Shown piece after piece: positions 49,896-50,491 of a stretch of DNA of 64,000 bases (positions within the stretch are counted from its first letter, which is position 1; the number at the start of each line of letters is the position of its first letter). A program made the position numbers and the translations under genes. Source of the DNA: an uncultured Bacteroidota bacterium (GTDB lineage: Bacteria > Bacteroidota > Bacteroidia > JABEUT01); NCBI GenBank assembly GCA_903916255.1, contig CAIWVW010000116.1, positions 1 through 64,000 on the forward strand. The letters run 5' to 3'. The notes under the pieces are model-generated. The model saw nothing but the letters and a program-made list of their open reading frames with translations. It made no database searches and had not been told where the DNA came from.

Positions 49896-49969
49896 CTACA
49901 TTTGCAAACCTTTTTTAGGGCTTAGCTCAGCTGGTTCAGAGCATCCCGATTTATTATCGGGAGGGTCAT
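49896..49969 (+). tRNA. Degenerate tRNA-Val-like 5' half with foreign anticodon arm
   Basis: The 50 bp 49896-49945 repeat 50038-50087 (142 bp downstream) with only three changes, which include the acceptor stem (TAGGGCT instead of GGGAGCT). The anticodon stem is then CCCGAT / ATCGGG around a TTATT core instead of the tRNA-Val stem, and the T arm is lost after GGGTCAT. Not a working tRNA. Confidence 0.65.
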
Positions 49970-50036
49970 ATAAATGAATCCTAGAACTGAATTAAGCGAT
50001 TTTTTTTATTGGAAATGTTGTGTGGTTTTAATAATT

Positions 50037-50045
50037 ACTACATTT
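50037..50045 (+). promoter_or_regulatory. tRNA-Val promoter -7 box
   Basis: ACTACATTTGC contains TACATTTG, the Bacteroidota -7 element, about 12 bp upstream of the tRNA-Val 5' end. The duplicated copy has the same box at about 49895-49903. Confidence 0.5.
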
Positions 50046-50057
50046 GCAAACCTTTTT

Positions 50058-50135
50058 GGGAGCTTAGCTCAGCTGGTTCAGAGCATCTGCCTTACAAGCA
50101 GAGGGTCATCGGTTCGAACCCGGTAGCTCCCACCA
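50058..50135 (+). tRNA. tRNA-Val (anticodon TAC)
   Basis: GGGAGCT (50058-50064) pairs with AGCTCCC (50125-50131). The D arm AGCTCAGCTGGTTCAGAGC and the anticodon arm TCTGC-CTTACAA-GCAGA (anticodon TAC) are followed by the T arm with GGTTCGAACCC. A discriminator A and a genome-encoded CCA complete it (A 50132, CCA 50133-50135). Confidence 0.95.
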
Positions 50136-50140
50136 CTTAA

Positions 50141-50172
50141 AAGCACTTATAAGTTCATTCTTATAAGTGCTT
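50141..50172 (+). terminator. Terminator after tRNA-Val
   Basis: AAGCACTTATAAG (50141-50153) pairs with CTTATAAGTGCTT (50160-50172), followed by a T-run, 5 bp after the CCA. Confidence 0.8.
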
Positions 50173-50184
50173 TTTTTGTTTTAG

Positions 50185-50439
50185 ATGAAATATACCGTCT
50201 ACATATTATTTTCTGTTGCTCTCAACAAGTATTATATAGGTTATACTGAAGATATGGCTGAGCGATTGCGCAAACATAATTCAAACCACAAAGGCTTTAC
50301 CGGTGGATATGGCGATTGGGAGGTGAAGTATAAAGAGGTAAAAGAAACAAAGTATTTAGCTGTAAAAAGAGAAAAGGAAATTAAAGGTTGGAAAAGCCGG
50401 GTAATGATAGAGCGCTTGATTGCGCAGCAAGGTTCATAG
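50185..50439 (+). CDS. GIY-YIG nuclease family protein
   Basis: 84 aa of the small GIY-YIG (UPF0213/URI) domain. Motifs: [20 protein letters not shown] (the VYI...YIG pair), the arginine in ERLRKHNSN, and the glutamate and lysines in [15 protein letters not shown]. Such proteins cut DNA. It starts 12 bp after the tRNA terminator and ends in a stop that corresponds to the tRNA-like GGTTCAGAG changed by one base to TAG (GGTTCATAG), with the following tRNA sequence open in the same frame. It may once have read through further. Its position inside duplicated tRNA pieces is unusual. Confidence 0.8.
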
Positions 50440-50491
50440 CATCCCGATTTTACATCGGGAGGGTCATCGGTTCGAACCCGGTAGCTCCCAC
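50431..50491 (+). tRNA. tRNA-Val-like 3' fragment with the same foreign anticodon arm
   Basis: GGTTCATAGCATC resembles the D-arm end of tRNA-Val (50075-50087, one change). CCCGATTTTACATCGGG replaces the anticodon arm, and the following 33 bases (50459-50491) are identical to the tRNA-Val 3' part (50101-50133). No matching acceptor 5' half is present. With the degenerate copy at 49933-49969 it shares the arm CCCGATTT..ATCGGG. Confidence 0.65.

Follow-up and report, generated by a model that had tools for sequence, protein, structure and literature searches.

tRNA genes are common integration sites. A more specific relationship has been reported for SegB, a GIY-YIG homing endonuclease of phages T4 and T6, which cuts inside tRNA genes and drives the tandem amplification of tRNA and segB together by way of microhomology that the 5′ region of the tRNA shares with the 3′ end of segB; SegB-type enzymes are also reported to cut their donor allele poorly (PMC13096335). 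REPs form a second point of comparison, and among them the CGTC REPs are stated to be without a dedicated transposase (PMC3733652).

Here we analyse a 64,000-nucleotide stretch of DNA from an uncultured Bacteroidota bacterium (the window), in which three tRNA-Val pieces, one of them intact, lie around a small GIY-YIG gene. The initial annotation suggested that a tRNA-targeting, self-duplicating GIY-YIG element would be new. Given the phage precedent SegB, tRNA-targeting GIY-YIG enzymes are not wholly new (PMC13096335). For bacterial chromosomes, we found no published link between GIY-YIG genes and tRNA copies or REPs in a literature search that left subscription journals and preprints mostly outside its reach.

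Architecture of the tRNA-Val locus

The locus is flanked by a Wzz/BY-kinase-like gene on one side and by a histidine kinase gene on the other, and all of its parts are on the plus strand, in the order promoter and tRNA-Val 5′ part, hairpin, promoter and intact tRNA-Val(TAC), terminator, GIY-YIG gene, and hairpin and tRNA-Val 3′ part. The upstream pseudo-tRNA unit (49892–49943), recognised through a 54-nt repeat, comprises a promoter box, TACATTTG (49897–49904), and tRNA-Val positions 1–28 (49916–49943). Position 28 joins a hairpin, TCCCGATTTATTATCGGGA (49944–49962), that replaces the anticodon arm and is followed by GGGTCAT (49963–49969), which sequence and repeat comparison identify as the beginning of the tRNA 3′ part; beyond it, the remaining T and acceptor arms of this 5′ copy are degenerate. 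A second TACATTTG box (50039–50046), within the 142-bp repeat, precedes the intact tRNA-Val(TAC) (50058–50135; Rfam, 69 bits), which is the only tRNA that ARAGORN calls in the whole window and the only piece above threshold in an Rfam search at the three pieces. A terminator hairpin with a T-run (50139–50174; 15-bp perfect inverted repeat) follows, immediately ahead of the start of the GIY-YIG nuclease gene (50185–50439; 84 aa). The TAG stop of this gene (50437–50439) falls inside tRNA sequence, where GGTTCATAG stands in place of GGTTCAGAG; its source is a remnant of the tRNA-Val 5′ part, GGTTCATAGCA (50431–50441), placed by repeat and reading frame. In this 3′ copy, too, a hairpin, TCCCGATTTTACATCGGGA (50442–50460), replaces the anticodon arm, and the tRNA-Val 3′ part, defined by the repeat, runs from position 46 to the end (50461–50491) and is identical to the intact tRNA. 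The last feature is a terminator hairpin (50497–50522) that resembles, by eye, the tRNA-Val terminators of congeners G006 and G009 and probably marks where the ancestral tRNA gene ended.

The three tRNA-Val pieces had been noted in the initial annotation (49896–49969, 50058–50135 and 50431–50491), and each is present as described. So is the tandem copy at a spacing of 142 bp that includes the promoter, a direct repeat of 54 nt (49892–49945 and 50034–50087; 93% identity) carrying TACATTTG, and so is the 37-nt overlap between the incomplete pieces (49933–49969 and 50431–50467; 89%). The same annotation read these incomplete pieces as belonging to a second tRNA-like gene whose anticodon arm differs, and here our analysis departs from it: both are copies of one tRNA-Val, and in each of them the anticodon arm TCTGCCTTACAAGCAGA (tRNA positions 29–45) is swapped for a REP-like hairpin, in both cases a 19-nt palindrome, TCCCGATTTNNNATCGGGA, of TCCCG..CGGGA type. 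We rejected a second tRNA species with a CCCGAT anticodon arm, because the sequence on either side belongs to tRNA-Val and the arm itself is palindromic and varies in sequence. The 5′ copy is without the 3′ acceptor strand and the 3′ copy without the 5′ acceptor strand, where the last part of the GIY-YIG gene stands instead. Pattern and profile searches of the host genome, from which our genome copy numbers are taken, found no second good match to tRNA-Val(TAC), so the intact gene is presumably essential.

Downstream, on the minus strand of the window, a 373-aa KdpD-like protein (52257–53378) is followed by a separate HAMP/PAS histidine kinase (50557–52257); these names come from sequence and from Pfam for the kinase only, and the two may be a split KdpD-type sensor.

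A single-domain GIY-YIG nuclease

The only gene between the repeats encodes the 84-aa protein, which matches the PF01541 profile with 53 bits (cut-off 22.6; E=4.5e-14). It is a GIY-YIG protein only, with no tyrosine HUH (Y1) transposase, and no integrase lies inside the element. Y6, Y17, G19, R27, H31 and E63 are conserved in the alignment; across its 25 members Y6 is nearly invariant, and Y17, R27, H31 and E63 are invariant or nearly so. We take the catalytic roles of the conserved Tyr, Tyr, Arg and Glu to be those of I-TevI. All phylogenetically separate pairs of relatives have nuclease dN/dS values of 0.04–0.19, which indicate that the gene is under strong purifying selection.

The nearest solved sequences are the UPF0213 proteins (PDB 1zg2 and 1ywl; E=1.2e-15) and the structure-specific nuclease SLX1. 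A tblastn search with the window protein against 50,697 phage records gave no match at E<=1e-5; therefore, the protein is at most SegB-like in its working, and we do not file it as a SegB homologue. Searches of plasmids, phages and viral contigs likewise found no relatives there, and we rejected plasmid or phage transfer on the lack of matches in those searches. The stop codon of the window gene has counterparts elsewhere: tRNA-derived nuclease stops, made by the TAG of TAGCTCAG or of the mutated GGTTCATAG, also occur at loci L139, L148 and L149.

Recurrence beside tRNA genes

The host genome contains a second case of the same layout, at tRNA-Arg(CCG) (C149:1–600). There, a tRNA-Arg(CCG) whose D arm contains a 28-nt hairpin is followed by an intact tRNA-Arg(CCG), another GIY-YIG gene and a hairpin-bearing tRNA-Arg. 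Among 69 short GIY-YIG genes from 60 related genomes, which are relatives of the window protein chosen regardless of tRNA, 34 are no more than 150 bp away from an intact tRNA, in every case on the same strand as that tRNA. Such proximity is expected for about 0.9% of genes, giving P ~5e-51 against a simple estimate from tRNA density. About 67 of the 80 closest named loci (GTDB species), which were selected on protein similarity alone, contain tRNA-Val(TAC) or pieces of it by our own labelling, in which a few fragments are ambiguous (for example, L141). The gene is tied to tRNA in most close relatives, a condition that the initial annotation had set for its proposal. Further tRNAs used are Arg-TCT, Arg-CCG, Arg-ACG, Ala-GGC, Met-CAT, Asn-GTT, Asp-GTC, Leu-CAA, Pro-CGG and Pro-TGG, together with those for Phe, His, Ser, Thr, Lys and Gly. 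Seven extra genomes, picked for another reason, have GIY-YIG genes at Pro-GGG, Asp-GTC, Met-CAT, Leu-CAA and Arg-CCT.

Repeats of at least 18 nt, direct or inverted, flank the gene on both sides in 82% of tRNA-linked and 56% of non-tRNA GIY-YIG genes. Because pseudo-genes of the same length placed elsewhere in the same loci were positive at only 1 of 490 positions, this flanking is not due to chance. Taken together, these comparisons suggest a widespread, apparently undescribed family of tRNA-gene-associated GIY-YIG elements on Bacteroidota chromosomes. ARAGORN gives some of the pseudo-copies odd anticodons, such as Ile-TAT, Cys-GCA or Stop. Pseudo-copies are therefore open to being mis-called as tRNAs, and many contigs end at the repeats.

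In a tree built from 145 GIY-YIG domains, the tRNA label changes 31 times, compared with 69.8 times when labels are shuffled (0 of 200 shuffles as low), indicating that the identity of the tRNA follows the protein clade. The tree comes from a short alignment and has many unresolved forks, and near-copies inflate its clustering. The Val-type clade also holds Arg-TCT, Lys and Arg-ACG loci, a mixture that jumps from one tRNA to a similar one could produce. None of the 26 GIY-YIG genes that form a separate sister clade (SH-aLRT 96) has a tRNA.

Fixed junctions and varying unit numbers

Wherever the join is readable, the points at which the tRNA stops and resumes are fixed for each tRNA type: 28|46 for Val, 27|45 for Arg-TCT, 25|36 for Asn, 38|51 for Asp, 36–38|47–49 for Met, 35|42 (some 27|45) for Ala, 13|17 for Leu and 9|28 for Pro. 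Resumption of tRNA-Val at position 46 was seen in 10 of 10 cases, and the position-28 junction of the window 5′ copy is also that of the other Val loci. A perfect palindrome of at least 5 bp is present in 57 of 62 non-functional Val copies that were extracted without requiring a palindrome; these are the 64 non-standard Val-type arms minus L125 and L142, which are functional TAC arms of TCTCG/CCTCG type. Intact Val arms are nearly invariant, being almost only TCTGCCTTACAAGCAGA or CCTGCCTTACAAGCAGG. The hairpins are a new and REP-like feature of the tRNA-associated GIY-YIG kind. A second palindrome (for example, TCCCGAAAGCTTTCGGGA) is often found in the T arm of downstream tRNA pieces (L018, L094, L129, L131 and L145), as if hairpins repeatedly inserted into non-functional tRNA copies.

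The number of units differs between orthologous loci. Four upstream units are present at L148 and one at L145, and units and nucleases are each present twice at L129 but once at L131. Tandem arrays occur at L082, L094, L105, L139, L145, L147 and L156; the segment made of nuclease, hairpin and tRNA 3′ part is repeated in Pedobacter cryophilus (L082), Flavisolibacter ginsengisoli (L094), Marivirga arenosa (L139), Algoriphagus aestuariicola (L147) and Marinirhabdus gelatinilytica (L156). The hosts of these arrays include named isolates, such as P. cryophilus, and M. arenosa has a complete genome.

Congeners of the window genome show how the locus may have arisen. Four have a bare tRNA-Val, and a further state is found at the same locus in G002, which has a single promoter, an intact tRNA-Val and a truncated nuclease. 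The window 5′ piece aligns with the only promoter of G002 at that locus. Judged by position and flanks against G002, G006 and G009, and thus from few genomes, the outer pieces resemble parts of an ancestral tRNA gene that was split, and it is the intact copy that seems to have been inserted.

A proposed SegB-like mode of spread

Because the window junctions are of the SegB kind, we propose a tRNA-specific GIY-YIG element that spreads by break and repair. In what we regard as the best reading, and one that we place slightly on the probable side, the loci belong to a chromosomal, tRNA-gene-associated GIY-YIG element family of Bacteroidota that works like SegB of phages T4 and T6. A small single-domain endonuclease would recognise a single kind of tRNA gene, in the window that of the tRNA-Val class, and break the DNA at or near a fixed point of that gene. 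Recombinational repair between short tRNA-homologous stretches would then copy the nuclease gene beside the tRNA, yielding tandem units of the form [promoter + tRNA 5′ part + hairpin]n, intact tRNA, [nuclease + hairpin + tRNA 3′ part]m. One intact tRNA would survive, as its loss would kill the cell, and the junction palindrome in each extra copy would remove the target site. The function is assigned by analogy, and we infer the cleavage of the tRNA gene, the repair route, a palindrome that marks or masks the cut site, and selfishness over host benefit.

This proposal is supported by the recurrence of the layout, the flanking repeats, the link between clade and tRNA, the fixed junctions, selection on the nuclease, the differences in unit number, the presence and absence of the element among congeners, the tRNA-Arg(CCG) case in the host and the precedent of SegB. 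As for the earlier suggestion of a GIY-YIG element that is tied to tRNA genes and duplicates them, the comparative data argue strongly for it. Against the SegB-like reading, the intact tRNA persists beside the nuclease although it looks like a target, which poor cutting of the donor allele, as reported for SegB-type enzymes, might explain (PMC13096335); SegB-type homing leaves the origin of the hairpin unexplained; and there are no relatives among the plasmids, phages and viral contigs searched. By eye, the pieces agree with the tRNA of the host itself and so give no direct sign of movement between species.

A further difficulty comes from units without a nuclease. In a nuclease-blind search of 395 genomes, 21 had hairpin tRNA-Val units, and in 8 of these the units had no adjacent nuclease; the idea that such tRNA fragments occur near GIY-YIG genes therefore holds in part only, and the coupling between hairpin and nuclease is not strict. 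Four genomes of genus g9 (L193–L196) have hairpin tRNA-Val units by tRNA-Val(TAC)/Val(CAC) with no GIY-YIG gene nearby, and at one of them, L194, upstream and downstream units are both in tandem pairs. Both the nuclease-less units in 8 of 21 genomes and this amplification without a nuclease weigh against the SegB-like reading; they fit non-autonomous units or remnants. A hairpin pseudo-tRNA-Ala unit also occurs between tRNA-Ile and tRNA-Ala (L197; G006:C10:17317–17345), in what looks like the spacer of a ribosomal RNA operon.

Possible hairpin recognition and other explanations

An alternative that we consider unlikely overall, yet a serious contender, is that the element is REP-like: the nuclease would recognise the hairpin rather than the intact tRNA, the hairpin–tRNA pieces would be mobile ends, as REPs are for RAYTs, the nuclease-less copies would be non-autonomous units, and the tRNA flanks would be homology that steers the destination. 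Such recognition would explain why the intact tRNA is spared, and the orphan hairpin–tRNA units agree with it. So do the nearest solved folds by sequence, the UPF0213 proteins and the structure-specific SLX1, and the frequency of both-side repeats at non-tRNA genes relative to the control positions. The TCCCGA..TCGGGA palindrome is dispersed in 55 of 60 genomes, with 14 copies in the host genome (G000), where the reversed pattern has 0, and 99 copies in G017. Several genes of the tRNA-free sister clade are flanked by classical palindromic repeats (L037, L039, L041, L043, L050, L074, L079 and L081), and these flanks, on both sides, belong to differing families (for example, TCATGCTGAACTTGTTTCAGCATCT and CAGTTCGAGCTTGTCGAGAACTG). 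In the host genome itself, a GIY-YIG gene at L003 (C149:13049–13261) lies between CGTCATTGCGAG palindromic repeats, of which there are 72 copies in that genome and 0 of the reversed pattern. REP-like recognition alone leaves unexplained why clade matches tRNA identity and why junctions are fixed for each tRNA, and hairpin sequences differ within L145, a locus with one nuclease type.

In view of the dispersed palindromes, the repeat-flanked genes of the tRNA-free clade and the transposase-less CGTC REPs, the nuclease might recognise hairpins, including those of tRNA arms. We tentatively extend this to a broader idea, possible if on the doubtful side: GIY-YIG nucleases could be the missing mobilisers of a large class of palindromic repeats, with one branch moving classical REPs, including the CGTC type, and a second having adopted tRNA arms as its hairpins. 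The tRNA-derived hairpin units made by this second branch would be non-autonomous in part and would multiply next to tRNA genes.

Benefit to the host seems improbable. Transcribed hairpin pseudo-tRNAs would serve as decoys or as controls of processing or dosage, and the nuclease would maintain or adjust tRNA copy number. The upstream units do lie between promoter and intact tRNA, nuclease-less arrays persist in the four genomes of one genus (L193–L196), and the hairpins of the Val copies are perfectly paired with compensatory variation (pair 2 is C-G in 49 and T-A in 13), but palindromes also fit a function at the DNA level, the elements are patchy among congeners and many different tRNAs are hit in one genus. 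Still less probable is a passive by-product, in which tRNA loci, as recombination hot spots, gather tandem duplicates and palindromes and the GIY-YIG gene is a passenger; orphan hairpin–tRNA arrays could be read in this way, whereas the tracking of tRNA by clade, the uniform orientation of all 34 linked genes, strong purifying selection and uniform junctions are not expected of a passenger. Finally, many loci stop at contig ends and the host assembly is fragmented (149 contigs), but an assembly artefact of short repeats is ruled out for practical purposes by the same architecture in the complete chromosome of M. arenosa (L139) and in isolates of many genera.

Discussion

If the SegB-like reading is right, selfish nucleases specific for tRNA would be present on the chromosomes of a whole phylum, where they divide essential tRNA genes, copy them and reassemble them with hairpins as substitutes. 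Bacteria would then provide a model of how an essential RNA gene is invaded by homing and of how tRNA genes are duplicated. The sister clade with its flanking repeats is a testable candidate for the spreader of palindromic repeats such as the CGTC REPs, a question that dates from 2013 or earlier.

The single-domain GIY-YIG proteins of the UPF0213 (YhbQ–YazA) group (PDB 1zg2 and 1ywl) share size and domain with the window protein. To our knowledge, their genes, the biology of which is poorly known, have not been described as tRNA-linked or repeat-flanked. With tRNA-targeting integrative elements, such as integrase islands and prophages, the loci share the use of tRNA genes as sites and the intact tRNA and partial direct repeats that are left behind; unlike integrase islands, they have no integrase, the whole cassette measures only about 0.6 kb, a hairpin takes the place of an arm in each of the two partial copies, and the units are in tandem.

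The resemblance to REP/RAYT systems (REPtrons and REPINs) lies in a small nuclease-type gene flanked by palindromic repeats that are also solitary in the genome, and in the coexistence of autonomous and non-autonomous units; RAYTs, however, are tyrosine (HUH) transposases, whereas the enzyme here is a GIY-YIG nuclease (PMC3733652). The palindromes here are, moreover, embedded in tRNA copies, and the spread of the units follows tRNA type. With the free-standing SegB of T4 and T6, the loci share a GIY-YIG nuclease beside tRNA genes, the involvement of many tRNA isotypes, and tandem amplification of tRNA and nuclease, which was reported for SegB and is seen here as arrays and as differences in unit number between orthologous loci (PMC13096335). 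They differ from SegB in that the nuclease is of 84 aa, essentially one domain, with no phage relatives found, in the tRNA pseudo-copies whose arm is replaced by a hairpin, and in their place on bacterial chromosomes, where one nuclease clade goes with each tRNA type or group of similar tRNAs.
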